From assembly GCF_035917575.1 (NCBI RefSeq), contig NZ_CP109090.1, positions 7,750,001-7,814,000 of the forward strand: a stretch of 64,000 nt of DNA, in the 5' to 3' direction. Of this stretch, positions 6,306 to 13,528 are shown one piece after another. Numbering within the stretch: the first letter of the stretch is position 1; each line of letters opens with the position of its first letter. The notes below the pieces were generated by a model that worked only from the letters and a program-made list of their open reading frames with translations, was not told the DNA's origin and did not search any database. The position numbers were made by a program, and so were the translations under genes. Origin of the DNA: Streptomyces sp. NBC_01788 (lineage in GTDB: Bacteria; Actinomycetota; Actinomycetes; Streptomycetales; Streptomycetaceae).

Positions 6306-7784
6306 TCATTCGACCGGCCATGTGTGTCCAGGGGCGTTGAGATGCATGTAGTCGACGTACTGCTGCGTCATGCGCCGCAGGGCCTCGTGCCGGCCGCAGT
6401 GGGTGGTGGCGTCGATGTGGTGGAACATCTCCTTCTGCCAGATCGCGCCGTTGCGTCCGGTGACGCACCGCTGCTCGATGATGCCGAGCAGCGGCTCGCG
6501 CCAGGCGTCGTCCATGCCCGACTGCTCCAATCCCTGGTGGGCCAGCGGGAGCAGCCGCCGCAGCACGAGTTCGGGCACCGGCACCTCGCCCATGCCGGGC
6601 CAGTACAGCCGTGCCTCCATGCCGTGCCGCGCCGCGGTGTGCAGGTTCTCCTCGGCGGCCGAGAAGGACATCCGCGACCACACCGGGCGGTCCTCCTCCA
6701 CCAGGGCGCGCGTGAGCCCGTAGTAGAAGGCGCCGTTGGCGAGCGTGTCGGCGACGGTCGGCCCGGCGGGCAGTACCCGGTTCTCCACCCGCACGTGCGG
6801 CTTGTCGTGGGAGATGGCGTAGACGGGGCGGTTCCAGCGGTAGATCGTGCCGTTGTGCAGGGTGAGTTCGCCCAGCTCCGGGACGTCGCCCCGGTCCAGG
6901 GTCTCCGCGGGGTCCTGCTCGTCGCACAGCGGCAGCAGCGCCGGGAAGTAGCGCAGGTTCTCCTCGAAGAGGTCGAAGACGCTGTTGATCCACCGCTCGC
7001 CGAACCACACCCGGGGCCGTACCCCCTGCACCTTGATCTCTTCCGGGCGGGTGTCGGTGGCCTGCTCGAACAGCGGGATACGGGTCTCGTGCCACAGTTC
7101 CTTGCCGAACAGGAACGGCGAGTTGGCCGCCAGCGCGACCTGGACGCCGGCGATCGCCTGCGCCGCGTTCCAGTAGCCGGCGAACTCGTCGGGGGAGACC
7201 TGGAGATGGAACTGGGTACTGGTGCACGCGGCCTCGGGAGTGATCGTGTCCGCGTAGGTCCGCAGCCGGTCCACGCCGTCCACCTCGATGTGCAGATCCT
7301 CGCCCCGGGCCGCGAAGACCTGGTCGTTGAGCAGCCGGTAGCGGGGATTCTCCGACAGCGCCGCCTCGCCCACGTCCTCCTGCCGCAGCGTGGGCAGGAT
7401 GCCGACCATGATCAGATGCGCGCCGACGGAACCGGCGCGGTCCTCCGCGTGGTTCAGCGCGGCGCGGATCTCGGACTCCCAGGCGTCGGGTCCGCCCTCG
7501 GTCAGCCGCCTCGGCGGGATGTTGATCTCCAGGTTGAACCGGCCCAGCTCGGTCGACCATGCGGGGTCGGCGATGGCCTCCAGCACGTCGCTGTTGCGCA
7601 TCGCGGGTTCGGCCCCGTCGTCGCCCAGGTTCAGCTCGATCTCCAGCCCCACCTGGGGCCGCTCGGACTCGAACCGGGACTCGCGCAGCATCTGCGCGAA
7701 CGCGTCGAGACACTTCTGCATCTTGATCCGGTACCGGCGGCGGTCCTCGCGGGTGAAGACCAGCGCCGGGACGTCACGTCCCAT
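6306..7784 (-). CDS. Glutamate-cysteine ligase family 2 (GCS2-type) protein
   Basis: A 492-residue carboxylate-amine ligase. The glutamate-cysteine ligase signature is present: VGLEIELNL (residues 45-53), with acidic residues for Mg-ATP, then ACTSTQFHLQV (186-196) and NNSPF-like AANSPFLFGKELW. The family joins glutamate to an amine or cysteine using ATP. Streptomyces makes mycothiol rather than glutathione, so the true acceptor may not be cysteine. The ATG at 7784 is preceded by GGGAGGG at good spacing. A longer frame running upstream to 9044 crosses tandem repeats and an antisense region and is not real. The gene appears monocistronic, with an inverted repeat just after the stop. Confidence 0.85.
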   Translation of the reverse strand: MGRDVPALVFTREDRRRYRIKMQKCLDAFAQMLRESRFESERPQVGLEIELNLGDDGAEPAMRNSDVLEAIADPAWSTELGRFNLEINIPPRRLTEGGPDAWESEIRAALNHAEDRAGSVGAHLIMVGILPTLRQEDVGEAALSENPRYRLLNDQVFAARGEDLHIEVDGVDRLRTYADTITPEAACTSTQFHLQVSPDEFAGYWNAAQAIAGVQVALAANSPFLFGKELWHETRIPLFEQATDTRPEEIKVQGVRPRVWFGERWINSVFDLFEENLRYFPALLPLCDEQDPAETLDRGDVPELGELTLHNGTIYRWNRPVYAISHDKPHVRVENRVLPAGPTVADTLANGAFYYGLTRALVEEDRPVWSRMSFSAAEENLHTAARHGMEARLYWPGMGEVPVPELVLRRLLPLAHQGLEQSGMDDAWREPLLGIIEQRCVTGRNGAIWQKEMFHHIDATTHCGRHEALRRMTQQYVDYMHLNAPGHTWPVE

Positions 7785-8127
7785 CGGCCCTCCCGGAACC
7801 CCCTCCTCGGACACCTCACCACCCCAGCGTCGCACCACCGGGCAACCCTGACCAGGCGAGGACGCGAGCGCCCGCACACCGCGCACCCGGAGCGGGCCCA
7901 CCAGGGCCGATCCGGCCGGGCACGGTGTCCGGGAGGTTCTCGCGTCCGGTCGGTTCTCGTGTCCAGGCCGCGGACCCTGTCCCGGCGGGTCGCTCGACCC
8001 GGGCGTGGATCCGTTCCCCGCCGCCCGGAGGCGGCGACCGACACGCGCGCCGAACCCTCGGGTCCTGCCGCCGTCGCACCCGTCGGCCTCGCGAGCGCCG
8101 GGCCGCGAGGCCCGAAGGCCGTCGGCC
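7785..8127. other. Non-coding stretch upstream of the ligase gene
   Basis: Together with the tandem repeats that follow, this forms about 520 bases between two leftward genes. It should contain the ligase promoter. I see only the Shine-Dalgarno site at 7788-7794 and no convincing -10/-35 pair. Composition is extremely GC-rich without codon bias. Confidence 0.3.
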
Positions 8128-8319
8128 CCCTGCGGCCTTACGGTCGCCCGGCCCTGCGGCCTTACGGTCGCCCGGCCCTGCGGCCTTACGGTCGCCCGGC
8201 CCTGCGGCCTTACGGTCGCCCGGCCCTGCGGCCTTACGGTCGCCCGGCCCTGCGGCCTTACGGTCGCCCGGCCCCGCGGCCTCACGGCCGCCCGGCCCCG
8301 CGGCCTCACGGCCGCCCGG
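8128..8319. repeat. Eight-copy 24-bp tandem repeat
   Basis: Six consecutive identical 24-bp units (8128-8271) begin CCCTGCGGCCTTACGG and end TCGCCCGG. Two variant units follow (8272-8319) with CGCGGCCTCACGGCCGCCCGG-type changes that make them more palindromic. The array has no spacers. The last unit contains the stop codon of the leftward flavin monooxygenase (8308-8306), so the array covers its immediate 3' end. Since 24 is a multiple of three, the array can be read as an 8-residue peptide repeat (GRATVRPQ) from the minus strand, but it lies beyond the stop. Confidence 0.95.
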
Positions 8320-9532
8320 GGCCGCGGAGCGCGCTCTCCGGTGGGCGCTCGCGCAGTGCGCCGTAGGCGAAGAAGTACGCCGGCAGGCGCCGGCCCAGCC
8401 GGGATCCGATGAGCAGGCCGCTGGTGCCGAGAGGCTGCCGCCCCCGGAGGACGGGTGCGATGAACCCGGCGTGGGCGGCCCGTTGCAGAGCCTGCGTCAC
8501 GACGGTGGTCGGACGGCGGCGGCGCTGCACGGCGCGTACGTCGCGCAGCCCCACGGTCCCCCGGCGCAGCGGCTCGACCAGGTACCGGGCGGCGGCGACG
8601 GCGTCCTCCACGGCGAGGTTGATGCCGATGCCGAAGACCGGGGACATCGCGTGCGCGGCATCGCCGATGCACAGCAGTCCCGGACGGTGCCAGCGGCGCA
8701 GCCGGTCCAGCCGCACGTCCAGGAGCTTGACCTCGTCCCAGGAGCGCAGGGTGTGCGTGCGGTCCGCCGCCCAGGGCACGGCGGCGGCGAAGTCGGTCAG
8801 GAAGCGGTCGATCCCGGCGGCGCGGCGCTCCGCGTCGGTGCCCTTGGGGATGAGCGCGGCGCACTGCCAGTACGACCCGCGGTCGATCATCGCGGTCAGG
8901 AAGCGGTCGCCCGCGCCGCCGACCAGGCCGCTCGGGTCGCCCTCGTGCCGCGGCAGCCGGAACCACCAGGCGTCCATCGGGCAGTCGAAACGGCGCAGCC
9001 CCAGTTCCGGTCGCGAGCGGGCCAGCGATCCGCGGCCGTCGCACGCGACCGTGAGGACCGCGCGCAGTTCACCGGTGCGGCCGTCGGAGGTGCGGTAGCG
9101 CACCCCGGTGACCCGGCCGCGTTCGATCAGGAAGGAGGTCGCCTCGGTGTTCATCCGCACGTCGAAGGACGGCTCGCTCCGGGCCTCGTCCACGAGGAGG
9201 TCGAGCAGGTCCCACTGGGGCACCATCGCGACGTAGTTGTACGGGCCGGGAAGCACCGCGAGGTCCGCGACCGTCACCATCGACCGGCCGGGACCGGCGG
9301 GCAGTTGGACGGTGCGCACCCGGCGCTGGGGCAGCCGTGCGAAGCGCCCGGCCAGGCCCAGCTCGTCGAGCAGCGCCAAGGTCGAGGGGTGCACGGTGTC
9401 GCCGCGGAAGTCCCGCAGGAAGTCGCCGTGCTGCTCCAGCACGGTCACGGCGACGCCCGACCGGGCCAGCAGCAGCGCGAACACCATGCCCGCGGGCCCG
9501 CCTCCCACCACACAACACGTGGTCCGCTCCAT
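8306..9532 (-). CDS. FAD-dependent monooxygenase (PHBH family)
   Basis: A 408-residue flavoprotein of the p-hydroxybenzoate hydroxylase group. The N-terminal Rossmann motif is VVGGGPAGMVFALLLARSG. The DG motif appears as VACDGRGSLARS, and the GD motif as LCIGDAAHAMSPVFGIGINLAVEDA. These enzymes use NAD(P)H and O2 to hydroxylate aromatic or polyketide substrates; the substrate here is unknown. ATG 9532 is preceded directly by an in-frame GTG (9535). I prefer the ATG. The 3' end runs into the 24-bp tandem array. A perfect TATAAT lies about 47 bases upstream of the start, with a palindrome across the likely transcription start, so transcription appears controlled by a local repressor. Confidence 0.88.
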   Translation of the reverse strand: MERTTCCVVGGGPAGMVFALLLARSGVAVTVLEQHGDFLRDFRGDTVHPSTLALLDELGLAGRFARLPQRRVRTVQLPAGPGRSMVTVADLAVLPGPYNYVAMVPQWDLLDLLVDEARSEPSFDVRMNTEATSFLIERGRVTGVRYRTSDGRTGELRAVLTVACDGRGSLARSRPELGLRRFDCPMDAWWFRLPRHEGDPSGLVGGAGDRFLTAMIDRGSYWQCAALIPKGTDAERRAAGIDRFLTDFAAAVPWAADRTHTLRSWDEVKLLDVRLDRLRRWHRPGLLCIGDAAHAMSPVFGIGINLAVEDAVAAARYLVEPLRRGTVGLRDVRAVQRRRRPTTVVTQALQRAAHAGFIAPVLRGRQPLGTSGLLIGSRLGRRLPAYFFAYGALRERPPESALRGPGRP

Positions 9533-9560
9533 CACGGCCCCGCCTCTCAGGAGAGCAGCA

Positions 9561-9607: not shown

Positions 9608-10284
9608 CCTTTTCGCGGCCCGAGCCGACCGGACTCCGGAAGTGCGGCCCTCGAAGCGCGGAACCGGCCGCGGTCTCCACTCAACCCGCAACGCCCACCG
9701 GGGAGGTTGACCGCGCCGGTGACTCAACTGCGCAGAGGAGCAGGCGACTTCGGGGATGCTTCGGCGCGCGCCGCACGGCATCCGGGTGCCGATGCCGTTG
9801 CCGCCGGCGCTCCGAATGCGCGACTCGCGCGGGGGCGGTGCGTCGACGGCGAGTCTTTATGTGGTTCCATCACACTTTGTGTCCTCTTTGCGTATTCAGA
9901 GCGCGGGTTTACCAAAGACGGATGGCAGTTCGGCGCTGACAGCGGGCGGTCACCGTTCGGCTGCGGGCCATACGGATGGCGGGCGTGGACCGCGTACCCC
10001 CGCACGAGTTCGCCCGGCGCGCGGGCGGCTCGCCGACCGCTCAGGTCACCGGAAACCGGCCAGGACAAGGGGATTCGGCCCCTCCTGATCGAGACGGGGA
10101 GAGCCGTGTCCGAGGCCGCGTCCGGTCCCTCGCGCGGACGTATGGAGGGGGTGTCAGTAGTCCGAATGCGACGCTCAGGTGGTGGGGCGTCAGGATTCCG
10201 CTGAAGGTGATCACGTCGCCGCTGCGATTCCCGATTGAGTGGGCGTTGGGCCGGCTCTCGCAGTCGTGACGGAAGGAACCACCC
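9608..10284. other. Intergenic region between the monooxygenase and surface-protein genes
   Basis: About 680 bases between divergent genes. It holds a less GC-rich patch at 9855-9925 containing ACACTTTGTGT, a hairpin or operator-like inverted repeat. The minus strand carries a 48-codon open frame (9870-9724, starting MEPHKDSPSTHRPRASRAFG) with a weak GAGG site upstream, for which I have no other support. Near the right end, GGAAGGA at 10272-10278 is the ribosome-binding site of the next gene. Confidence 0.35.
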
Positions 10285-11247
10285 ATGCGTATCACCCGTA
10301 CTCTGTTCACCTCCGCGGCTCTGGCCGCGGCCGTGACGCTCTCCGCCCCTGCCGCGGGCGCGCTGACCGAGTCCGCGCTCCCCTCCGCGCAGCATCAGGC
10401 CGTCAAGGCCGACGGCGGCGCCCCCGGCGGGGACAACGGCGGCAACGACGAAGGCCGCGGTGGCCGTGACAACGGTGGCGGCGGCGACAACGGCGGTGGC
10501 CGCGACAACGGCGGTGGCCGCGACAACGGCGGTGGCCGTGACAAGGGCGGCGAGGGCCGCGGCAAGGGCGGCGAGGGCCGTGGCGAGGGCCGCGGTGAAG
10601 GCCGTGGCGAGGGCCGTGGTGAAGGCCGCGGTGAGGGCCGTGAGCACCGTGAGCACCGTGAGCACCGGCCGCACGGTGGCGTGCACGCCGGTGGCGGTGC
10701 CCTGGCCATGATGAACGCCGACAACGACCGCGGTGGCCGTGACGAGGGCGACCGTGGTGACCGTGACGAGGGTCGCGGTGGCCGTGAGAAGGGCGGCAAG
10801 GGCGAGCGTGGCGAGGGCCGTGACCACCGCGAGGGTCGCGAGGGTCGCGAGGGCCGTGAGGGCCGTGAGGGCCGTGAGGGCCGTGAGCACGGGCCGCACG
10901 GTGGCGTGCACGCCGGTGGCGGTGCCCTGGCCATGATGAACGCCGACAACGACCGCGGCGGCCGTGAAGAGGGCGAGCGTGGCGGTCGTGAGAAGGGCGG
11001 CAAGGGCGAGCACCGTGAGGGCCGTGAGGGCCACGAAGGCCGTGAGGGCCGTGAGGGCCGTGAGGGTCACGAAGGCCGTGAGGGCCGTGAGCACCGGCCG
11101 CACGGTGGCGTGCACGCCGGAGGCGGCGGCCTGGCCGAGTCCTCCAACGCCACCCTCGGCCTCGGGGCCGCGCTGCTGCTCGGCGGCCTGGGCGCCGGTG
11201 CGTACATGCTCCGCCGCCGTCAGGCGTCGGACCCTTCCGCGGCCTGA
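10285..11247 (+). CDS. Secreted Gly/Arg/Glu/His-rich repetitive surface protein
   Basis: A 320-residue protein with a signal peptide (about 1-26, MRITRTLFTSAALAAAVTLS then APAAGA) and a long low-complexity region built of GRE, GRD-NGG and REH units. It ends in a hydrophobic helix (about 288-306) followed by RRR, a wall-sorting-like tail. The element PHGGVHAGGGxLA occurs three times (129-141, 204-216, 272-284). The first two copies are followed by MMNADNDRGGR, and the last by ESSN and the C-terminal helix. DNA of the first two copies is identical over about 66 bases, so the amplification is recent. There is no LPXTG motif; LAESS just before the helix is the closest to LAXTG. A class F sortase lies 141 bases downstream. 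Confidence 0.85.
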   Translation: MRITRTLFTSAALAAAVTLSAPAAGALTESALPSAQHQAVKADGGAPGGDNGGNDEGRGGRDNGGGGDNGGGRDNGGGRDNGGGRDKGGEGRGKGGEGRGEGRGEGRGEGRGEGRGEGREHREHREHRPHGGVHAGGGALAMMNADNDRGGRDEGDRGDRDEGRGGREKGGKGERGEGRDHREGREGREGREGREGREGREHGPHGGVHAGGGALAMMNADNDRGGREEGERGGREKGGKGEHREGREGHEGREGREGREGHEGREGREHRPHGGVHAGGGGLAESSNATLGLGAALLLGGLGAGAYMLRRRQASDPSAA

Positions 11248-11272
11248 TCGGGCTGCTCTTGCTCGTCGCTGG

Positions 11273-11324
11273 GCTGCCGCGGTCTGCGTCACCTCCCCAG
11301 GAGGGCAGCGCAGGCCGCGGCAGC
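11273..11324 (+). terminator. Long hairpin between surface-protein and sortase genes
   Basis: GCTGCCGCGGTCTGCG (11273-11288) pairs with CGCAGGCCGCGGCAGC (11309-11324), with one internal non-standard pair and a 20-base loop. There is no U-tract. It lies 25 bases after the stop and 64 before the sortase start, so it could terminate transcription or reduce read-through into the sortase gene. Confidence 0.65.
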
Positions 11325-11388
11325 GGCGGCCGACCCCAACCGTCGCCCGCGGCCAGTACCACCCCTTGAATGACGAAAGGCACCGTCC

Positions 11389-12138
11389 ATGGCTTCTCAG
11401 CAGCCGCCCCAGACGGAGCAGAGCGGGACCAAGCCCGCCACGCGTCGTTACCGGCTTCGCCTGCTGTGGCCCGCGGCAGCGGTCGGGCTGGGCATCGCGC
11501 TCATCCACAACTCCCTGGTCGCCGCGCCCGTGGCGCACCCCAAGCACACCCAGCGCCCGGCGGCCGTCGCCCCCCGGGCCTCCACGTCGGCCGAACCGAG
11601 CGCCGACGCCGGCAGCAGTTCCCCCTCCAGTGCGGGCTCCAACGCCGGCGCGGAAGCCGACGACAAGTCACTGCCCCGCTCGCAACCGACACGGCTCTCG
11701 ATCCCGGACATCGGGGTGGACGCGCCCTTCACCAATCTGACCCTCAACGCCTCGGGACAGCTGAACCCACCGCCGGCCGACGACACCAACATGGTCGGAT
11801 GGTTCCAGGGCGGACCGTCGCCCGGTGAGCGCGGAGCGTCGGTCGTCGTGGGTCACCTGGACACCATGACCGGTCCCGCGGTCTTCGCCGAGCTGGACTC
11901 TCTCGAGCCCGGAGCCGCCGTGGACATCACGCGCGCCGACGGGACCGTCGCCCGCTTCAAGGTCGACTCCCTCGACTCCTTCAGCAAGGCGGACTTCCCC
12001 GACGACAAGGTCTACTCGGACACGACGACTCCCCAGCTGCGACTGATCACGTGCGGCGGAAACTTCAACCGCATCAGCAAGGACTACGAGGAGAACGTGG
12101 TCGTCTTCGCCCACCTCGACACGAGCTCCACCGGCTGA
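11389..12138 (+). CDS. Class F sortase
   Basis: A 249-residue transpeptidase with an N-terminal membrane anchor (about 24-46), a Ser/Ala/Pro-rich extracellular linker (about 55-97) and a sortase domain (about 100-245). The catalytic residues are visible: His156 in VVVGHLD, Cys222 in LITCGG, and Arg228 in FNRISKDY. Sortases cleave a C-terminal sorting signal and attach the protein to peptidoglycan. Class F enzymes are actinobacterial and their substrates are poorly known. The repetitive surface protein directly upstream is the obvious substrate or partner. Expression may be partly coupled to it through the intergenic hairpin. Confidence 0.92.
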   Translation: MASQQPPQTEQSGTKPATRRYRLRLLWPAAAVGLGIALIHNSLVAAPVAHPKHTQRPAAVAPRASTSAEPSADAGSSSPSSAGSNAGAEADDKSLPRSQPTRLSIPDIGVDAPFTNLTLNASGQLNPPPADDTNMVGWFQGGPSPGERGASVVVGHLDTMTGPAVFAELDSLEPGAAVDITRADGTVARFKVDSLDSFSKADFPDDKVYSDTTTPQLRLITCGGNFNRISKDYEENVVVFAHLDTSSTG

Positions 12139-12253: not shown

Positions 12254-13528
12254 ATGCCCGCATGGCACCTGCGCGACTATCACGACGACGATCTGGACCA
12301 GGCGATCCTCATCTGGGAGGAGAGCCGGCAGGCGGACGAGGAACCGGTCTTCCCGGTCTCGGAGGTGATGGCCGAGGCCCGGGCCGGACAGAACGCCGTG
12401 GTCGCCGTCGTGGGTGACGAACTCGTCGGCATGGCCGCGGCCCGGGCGAGCGGGCAGCGCGGCTGGATCCTCCTGGTGGCGCTCGCCGCCCGGTGGCGCC
12501 GGCGCGGCATCGGCAGCGCCCTCCTCACCGAACTGGAACGGCGTCTGAGGGCGCTGGGCGTACGTCGTATCAGCGCCCTGCTGCCCCCCGGTGCCGCCGG
12601 GACCTCGGCCCTGGAGCACTGCGGCTACCGGTTCCGGGACGACCTGGTCTTCTACGAGAAACTCGAACCGCAGGGACCCTCCGACGCCGGCGCCCTCACG
12701 GAACTGGGCGGCCGCATGCTTCCCGAGGGGCTCTGGGACGCCATGGCCGGCATGGAACGGGAGAAGCAGGTCGTGGAACGACGGGTCGTGCTCCCGCTGG
12801 CGGAGCCGGCGCTCGCCGACCGCTACGGCGTCGCCCCGCCGAAGGGTGTCATCCTCTTCGGCCCGCCCGGCACCGGGAAGACCAGCTTCGCCAAGGCGGT
12901 GGCCTCGCGACTCGCCTGGCCGTTCGTGGAGATCTTCCCCTCCCGGCTCGCCGCCGACACGAGCGAGGGGCTGGCGGCGGCGTTGCGGGGGGTGTTCGCC
13001 GACCTGGCGGAACTGGACTCGGTGCTGCTCTTCATCGACGAGGTCGAGGAGATCGCCGGCGTGCGGTCCGGAGTGGCGGTGGACCCGGGACACGGCGTCA
13101 CCAACGAACTGCTCAAGCTCATCCCGGGCTTCCGCGAGCACGACTCCCGGCTGCTGGTCTGCGCCACGAACTCGGTGCGCTCCCTCGACCCGGCGTTCCT
13201 GCGACCGGGCCGGTTCGACTACGTCATCCCGATCGGACCCCCCGACGCGACGGCCCGCTCGGCGATCTGGGACCGCTACCTCCGGGCCGCCGACCCGGTG
13301 GACGTGGCCCAACTGGTCGCCGCCAGCGAGCTGTTCACTCCGGCGGACATCGTGTTCGCCGCCCGCAAGGGCGCGCAGGCCGCCTTCGAGCGGGAGGTCG
13401 CGCGGCGGCAGGGCCGTCCGGCCACCACCGAGGACTACCTCGACGCCATCGCCGACACCCGGCCCACGCTCACCGCACAGGCGATCGAGGAGTTCACGGA
13501 GGACATCGAGAAGTTCAGTCGCCTCTGA
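12254..13528 (+). CDS. GNAT acetyltransferase fused to an AAA+ ATPase
   Basis: A 424-residue two-domain protein. Residues 1-138 form a GNAT fold with the acetyl-CoA loop RRRGIG (82-87), the SALLTELE helix and the typical C-terminal strand pair. Residues about 150-424 form a CDC48/FtsH-like AAA+ module: Walker A GPPGTGKT (203-210), Walker B LLFIDE (258-263), sensor Asn306 in CATNS, and Arg fingers in FLRPGRFD (317, 320). A C-terminal helical lid follows. This looks like an ATP-driven remodeller that may acetylate, or be steered by acetylation of, a client; the client is unknown. The ATG at 12254 follows GAGGTGG. No protease domain is present. Confidence 0.88.
   Translation: MPAWHLRDYHDDDLDQAILIWEESRQADEEPVFPVSEVMAEARAGQNAVVAVVGDELVGMAAARASGQRGWILLVALAARWRRRGIGSALLTELERRLRALGVRRISALLPPGAAGTSALEHCGYRFRDDLVFYEKLEPQGPSDAGALTELGGRMLPEGLWDAMAGMEREKQVVERRVVLPLAEPALADRYGVAPPKGVILFGPPGTGKTSFAKAVASRLAWPFVEIFPSRLAADTSEGLAAALRGVFADLAELDSVLLFIDEVEEIAGVRSGVAVDPGHGVTNELLKLIPGFREHDSRLLVCATNSVRSLDPAFLRPGRFDYVIPIGPPDATARSAIWDRYLRAADPVDVAQLVAASELFTPADIVFAARKGAQAAFEREVARRQGRPATTEDYLDAIADTRPTLTAQAIEEFTEDIEKFSRL

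Follow-up and report, generated by a model that had tools for sequence, protein, structure and literature searches.

Known sortases need a membrane-retained signal in their substrates, consisting of a motif, a helix and a basic tail. According to the available part of one source, all sortases share His-Cys-Arg (PMC13257024), and the class F enzyme of C. acnes is reported there to recognise LPXTG. The accessible text of a 2026 study of Actinoplanes missouriensis (PMC13251363) states that it is unknown what class F sortases do physiologically, reports that deletion of all four class F sortases changed none of the phenotypes examined, and sets aside the neighbours of SrtF1 and SrtF4, although possible substrates, for want of known pentapeptides. 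In a literature search that had most subscription papers outside its reach, no paper describing a V-x-[T/A]-G-x-G-G signal was found, and searching for internal, multiple or tandem sorting signals returned nothing relevant; GVDTG occurred in one paper of the literature searched, on an allergen.

Here we analyse a Streptomyces locus in which such a motif occurs several times in the protein encoded next to a class F sortase. The original prediction held class F substrates to be largely unidentified, which needs qualifying, since the signal is partly known already: the GVDTG model of NCBIfam matches the tail of the protein. The terminal domain is thus already modelled, and the new part is the repeated internal copies.

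The gene pair and its surroundings

The window, by which we mean the whole stretch of 64,000 nucleotides analysed, belongs to a genome of 8.27 Mb on one contig. As had been predicted, it encodes a secreted protein of 320 residues followed by a class F sortase; the sortase gene lies downstream after a gap of 141 nt in the list of open reading frames. The features of the pair are as follows.

10285..11247, + strand: substrate gene, 320 aa (open reading frame; NF058571 GVDTG_CTERM match at residues 272-312)
10285..10362, + strand: signal peptide MRITRTLFTSAALAAAVTLSAPAAGA, read from the sequence, with a presumed cleavage point
10669..10707, + strand: internal copy 1, PHGGVHAGGGALA, starting at residue 129
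10894..10932, + strand: internal copy 2, PHGGVHAGGGALA, starting at residue 204
11098..11136, + strand: terminal copy PHGGVHA/GGGGLA, predicted class F sorting motif, starting at residue 272
11152..11211, + strand: hydrophobic helix of the sorting domain (hydropathy tail scan, the same gene in L146; sequence)
11212..11220, + strand: RRR, positively charged tail (sequence)
11389..12138, + strand: class F sortase gene, 249 aa, hydrophobic segment at the N-terminus (NF033748, PF04203, Foldseek)
11854..11856, + strand: catalytic His156, invariant in 28 aligned sortases and in 107/107 aligned class F/E domains
12052..12054, + strand: catalytic Cys222, invariant in 28 aligned sortases and in 107/107 aligned domains
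12094..12096, + strand: Asn236, aligned with the class E catalytic Arg (alignment only)

The sortase frame scored 211.3 bits against NF033748 (class F), passing the curated cut-off of 166, and 82.5 bits against PF04203. An AF2 model of the enzyme had a mean pLDDT of 65.2, with most of the first 90 residues below 50, and when it was submitted to Foldseek all 50 matches listed were solved sortases of classes A, C, D and E, with E-values down to 6.1e-9. Searching the sequences of solved structures with the single sequence as query gave no match; with a profile, 4d70 was the one sortase recovered, beside 46 rows of antibody chains matched by chance.

Between its signal peptide and its hydrophobic helix with RRR, the substrate consists of a long Gly/Arg/Glu/Asp repeat region with PHGGVHAGGG[AG]LA elements. 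The three predicted PHGGVHAGGGxLA elements were found at residues 129, 204 and 272, and the further claim that two of them lie in recently duplicated DNA is a fair one, copies 1 and 2 having 67 identical nt in common (10667-10733 and 10892-10958). Copy 3 shares an identity of 36 nt with copy 1 and of 25 nt with copy 2. Motif, helix and basic tail follow one another in order at the C-terminus, at the terminal copy only, and the internal copies consist of the motif alone. Across 27 aligned substrates, M1, R2, R5 and L7 of the signal peptide are invariant, as are R311 and R312 of the tail, with R310 kept in at least 90%.

A scan covering promoters and terminators of the sigma-70 type only found none at the locus. 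An open frame of 607 aa runs antisense to the substrate gene (window 9724-11547, minus strand) and is most likely an artefact of high G+C content and a 3-base repeat pattern. Elsewhere in the window, eight copies of a 24-nt unit with a 98% match occupy 8128-8319, at the 3' end of a gene for a FAD-binding-domain protein (8306-9535, minus strand) and upstream of or within an open reading frame of the glutamate-cysteine-ligase family (6306-9044, minus strand; start uncertain). The protein encoded at 12254-13528 combines a GNAT acetyltransferase domain with an AAA ATPase domain similar to proteasome-activating nucleotidases and CDC48.

The terminal copy as probable sorting signal

Conservation and model matches make it very probable that the adjoining class F sortase recognises PHGGVHAGGG as its sorting signal. 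NF058571 GVDTG_CTERM matched residues 272-312 of the substrate with 29.6 bits, a narrow pass at a cut-off of 29, and it matched 23 of the 27 aligned family members at E<=0.001. Because the model covers these residues, it is PHGGVHAGGG, and not LAESS, that stands at the known sorting motif, and by our own reading the GVDTG of the model would be GVHAG here. At 26 of 28 loci with a named sortase ortholog, the C-terminal part of the upstream protein consists of P-x-GG-[VM]-H-[TA]-G-[GS]-G-x-[LM]-[AV], a helix and a basic tail. P1 of the motif is Ala in some of these species and Thr in others, and HAG therefore stands for the usual Thr-Gly. Since V-x-[T/A]-G-x-G-G is common to tails encoded next to class F sortases throughout Actinomycetota, the cut is predicted at VHA/GGG, after Ala278 (nt 11118) and before Gly279.

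The translated substrate frame has no LPXTG or LAXTG pentapeptide before the helix. LAESS could be taken as a variant of LAXTG that serves as signal for a class E or class F sortase: it stands ahead of the helix, LAXTG is used by class E sortases according to the part of PMC5148588 available, and two class E sortases above cut-off are encoded elsewhere in the same genome. However, the segment reads LAQSS, LAQDS, MAMTG, LATNS or LVQPA in orthologs, whereas PxGG[VM]H[TA]G[GS]G is kept in 27/27 terminal copies, and we give this explanation almost no credence. The non-canonical signal PHGGVHAGGG-LAESS that had been proposed thus survives in its first part, which is conserved and lies under GVDTG_CTERM, and not in its LAESS part.

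Pairing of sortase and motif protein

The 28 named sortase orthologs are all from Streptomyces, one of them filed as [Kitasatospora] papulosa, and 26 have the motif protein directly upstream on the same strand. The two exceptions are L115, which has only 138 nt upstream, and L121, where a 100-N gap lies at the expected gene end and no motif was read upstream of the gap.

For the genus, 199 genomes were searched with a profile (18 rows) built from nothing but the terminal domain, which gave matches in at least 128. We took the best 110 places among these matches (E<=3.5e-12; 30 loci given and 80 more), leaving out weaker ones, many of which covered the helix part only. A same-strand class F sortase adjoins the motif protein in 100 of these best 110 places. 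As to the motif occurring without sortases, which had been named as a sign against the original prediction, ten places lack the neighbour: two are uninformative (L275, whose contig ends 331 nt downstream, and L216, with a 100-N gap just downstream), and each of the other eight genomes has a gene for a related sortase (46-57% identical), lying about 1.25 kb downstream in two and carrying an internal stop codon in one (G014).

Beyond the genus, we sampled 90 genomes of Actinomycetota. Class F or F-like sortases (E<=1e-15) occurred in 21 genomes, 12 of them above the curated cut-off and nine with weaker, F-like matches, and GVDTG matches (E<=0.001) in ten, all of which are among the 21. Of the 21 GVDTG matches phylum-wide, 16 adjoin a class F or F-like sortase, one of them divergently; the other five start at profile position 10 or later and cover nothing but the helix part. 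Among 99 genomes sampled at order level, a class F sortase was present in 94 and a GVDTG protein above cut-off in 83; in the five genomes lacking the sortase, the best GVDTG E-values were 7.2e-4, 0.0058 and 0.0079, with two having no match.

The neighbours of all 59 phylum sortases were also read independently of the GVDTG model. By the residue at the Arg-equivalent position, 48 of these enzymes are Asn-type, nine Arg-type and two without a type. A same-strand neighbour with a sorting-like tail accompanies 38 of the 48 Asn-type sortases; the strict pattern [VIMA]-x-[TA]-G-x-[GA]-G was present in 22 of these 38 neighbours versus 1 of 56 control open reading frames bearing tails elsewhere, and a looser pattern in 33 of 38 versus 10 of 56 away from class F sortases, the patterns having been written after the tails were seen, so that these counts are descriptive rather than predictive. 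By the loose motif and the same-strand tail test, 15 of 48 Asn-type sortases had no motif neighbour. Among the nine Arg-type sortases, two had a tail neighbour and none the motif.

A second class F sortase of the same genome (G000:C1:1863000-1868000, L156) is paired with a single-copy relative with the tail GPRGGVQAGGGGLASS, and a similar pair with the tail PEGGVHAGGGGLADT is found at L160 in G001; no internal copies were found in either partner protein. At L155 and L147/L192, one type of class F sortase stands beside a divergently transcribed tail protein in which GGVRGG[VL]GG replaces V-x-[T/A]-G.

The active site of the sortase

The enzyme had been credited with full catalytic residues, and this holds for His156 and Cys222 and not for Arg, the aligned position being Asn236. 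Of 105 class F or F-like domains, 97 have Asn at the Arg-equivalent position and seven have Arg, one domain (L150) being badly extracted; another residue may act in place of the Arg. In the phylum sample, every one of the 29 domains that pass the class F cut-off has Asn. Both class E sortases of this genome have Arg at this position. All nine Arg-type phylum domains score below the class F cut-off and therefore may not be class F.

These counts, and the lack of a class F knockout phenotype in A. missouriensis reported in the part of PMC13251363 consulted, could be accommodated if the protein were simply membrane-anchored or secreted and the adjoining 'sortase' were no transpeptidase. Against this stand the invariant His and Cys, the conserved sortase fold, and the reported LPXTG recognition by the C. 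acnes enzyme (PMC13257024, in its accessible portion), as well as the loose motif beside 33 of 48 Asn-type but 0 of 9 Arg-type sortases, all nine of which are below cut-off. We consider this reading very unlikely. Motif pairing goes with the Asn type, which suggests an active site that is changed rather than dead.

Internal copies across the family

The family was pooled from the genus loci, the window, the 28 ortholog loci, L063 and L067, giving 130 non-identical proteins; L115 and L121 (substrate unreadable), L208 and L222 (last match in the helix region) and seven identical proteins were left out of the counts. L208 and L222 do have genuine copies, but their third 'copy' is spurious. The 130 proteins hold 222 internal copies. 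In the 124 with intact 5' ends, six with open 5' ends being left out of this distribution, 17 have none, 49 one, 23 two, 20 three, 13 four and two five, so that 107 carry between one and five.

Loose matches to the motif number 227 inside the 130 family proteins versus 10.7 expected in shuffled sequence. In 400 random pairs of proteins the motif is 81% identical, whereas the spacers, at 27% identity versus 21.5% when shuffled, have diverged nearly to randomness; in composition the spacers are 53.5% D/E/K/R/H and 19% Gly. No decayed copies came to light in a scan that allowed as many as three mismatches over eleven positions (8 or more matching). The four Gly codons show 278 silent differences between neighbouring copies of one gene, and the lack of replacements there rests on the decay scan, as the collecting pattern fixes the Gly and T/A positions. 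Two proteins with an unusual P2 residue (VDAG in L234, VKAG in L232) have it in every copy, which favours use of the internal copies by the sortase, although duplication alone could explain it. Family proteins are related and copies duplicate within genes, so copies are not independent events.

A protein-database search with the terminal domain returned six relatives, five with one internal copy; the sixth, P0003, has no internal copy and ends in SGAVKAGGGG. A quickly built sortase tree, its support values unread, places the sortases of multi-copy partners in one clade, together with single-copy members such as L119 and L157. Going by these alignments and counts, the internal copies are a conserved feature of the family, beyond this strain. 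Two candidate accounts of them could be ruled out: they are no quirk of this strain, being common to the clade, and no general trait of class F partners, since 45 other partners, about half of them close relatives of one Streptomyces subfamily and hence non-independent, gave 4 loose internal matches versus 7.4 expected, no excess over chance.

Possible use of the internal copies

We think it probable, with moderate confidence, that the two genes encode a cognate sortase-substrate pair in which the substrate carries several selected sortase-recognition sites. The signal peptide would direct export of the substrate, which the C-terminal helix and RRR would retain in the membrane. Cys222 would then attack VHA/GGGG in the terminal copy, and the upstream part would be joined to the cell wall, catalysis and acceptor both being presumed. 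The conservation of the internal PxGG[VM]H[TA]GGG copies suggests that selection has preserved them as additional sites recognised by this sortase, at which a probably disordered, highly charged chain could be captured or cleaved more than once. On the hyphal surface this would yield a Gly-rich polyampholyte layer attached at multiple places.

Alternatively, only the terminal copy may be used, the internal ones being by-products of a repeat expansion that started from the sorting signal, or uncut structural or ligand-binding repeats of a wall-spanning stalk. Internal copies are followed by no membrane helix, which speaks against multi-site use; within-gene repeats expand readily; and 17 of 124 proteins have no internal copy, so that internal copies are unneeded for pairing. 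Position 10 of the motif differs as well: 211 of the 222 internal copies have Ala there, as against 55 of the 130 terminal copies, 74 of which have Gly, and internal and terminal copies are therefore not identical sites. Yet pure by-products should decay, and no decayed copy was found beside the 222 that were kept; the positions fixed internally (V/M/I, T/A, G, G) are, besides, those common to unrelated single-copy class F tails, which supports multi-site use. A binding role as an HxxxH metal site is unlikely, since the position of the first His holds H, R, E, S, K or N. We regard use of the terminal copy alone as possible, if rather unlikely.

In a more extreme scheme, which we think doubtful, the substrate would be a polyprotein: the class F sortase would cut every VH[T/A]/GGG, and the pieces would be linked to the glycine bridge of the wall and to each other. 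Each cut would leave a GGG amino end on the downstream piece, and such an end is the chemistry that sortases use as acceptor. If true, one gene and one enzyme would yield a covalent, species-specific, charged and Gly-rich hyphal network.

If the conserved internal sites, of which a substrate has up to five, are used as in the cognate pair that we favour, this would amount to a new mode of action for a sortase, with VHTGGG as a candidate tag for orthogonal ligation. The V-x-[T/A]-G-x-G-G rule should also make candidate substrates of the kind set aside earlier findable and testable with short peptides; PHGGVHAGGGALA, PHGGVHTGGGALA and PHGGVHAGGGGLA are candidate recognition peptides for the class F sortase.

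Comparison with known systems

The closest described domain is GVDTG_CTERM (NF058571), compared here by name, length and scores: the terminal domain passes its cut-off, but P1 is Ala here, and the model covers the C-terminus only, without internal copies. The enzyme resembles the NF033748 class F sortases, SrtF1-4 of A. missouriensis and the C. acnes sortase, in family score, fold, His and Cys; unlike the LPXTG attributed to the C. acnes enzyme in the available text of PMC13257024, the partner here carries VHAG, in several copies. AMIS_11010 and AMIS_36440, which lie beside SrtF1 and SrtF4, share with our substrate a signal peptide, a transmembrane region, a basic tail and the absence of a canonical pentapeptide; they were compared by description only, and the accessible part of PMC13251363 describes no repeated motif for them. 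Finally, the Streptomyces class E sortases and their LAXTG chaplins, as presented in the part of PMC5148588 available, offer a parallel in wall anchoring without LPXTG, and differ from the present pair in the motif (LAXTG versus V-x-[T/A]-G-x-G-G), in enzyme class and, for the two class E sortases of this genome, in having Arg at the position of the class F Asn.
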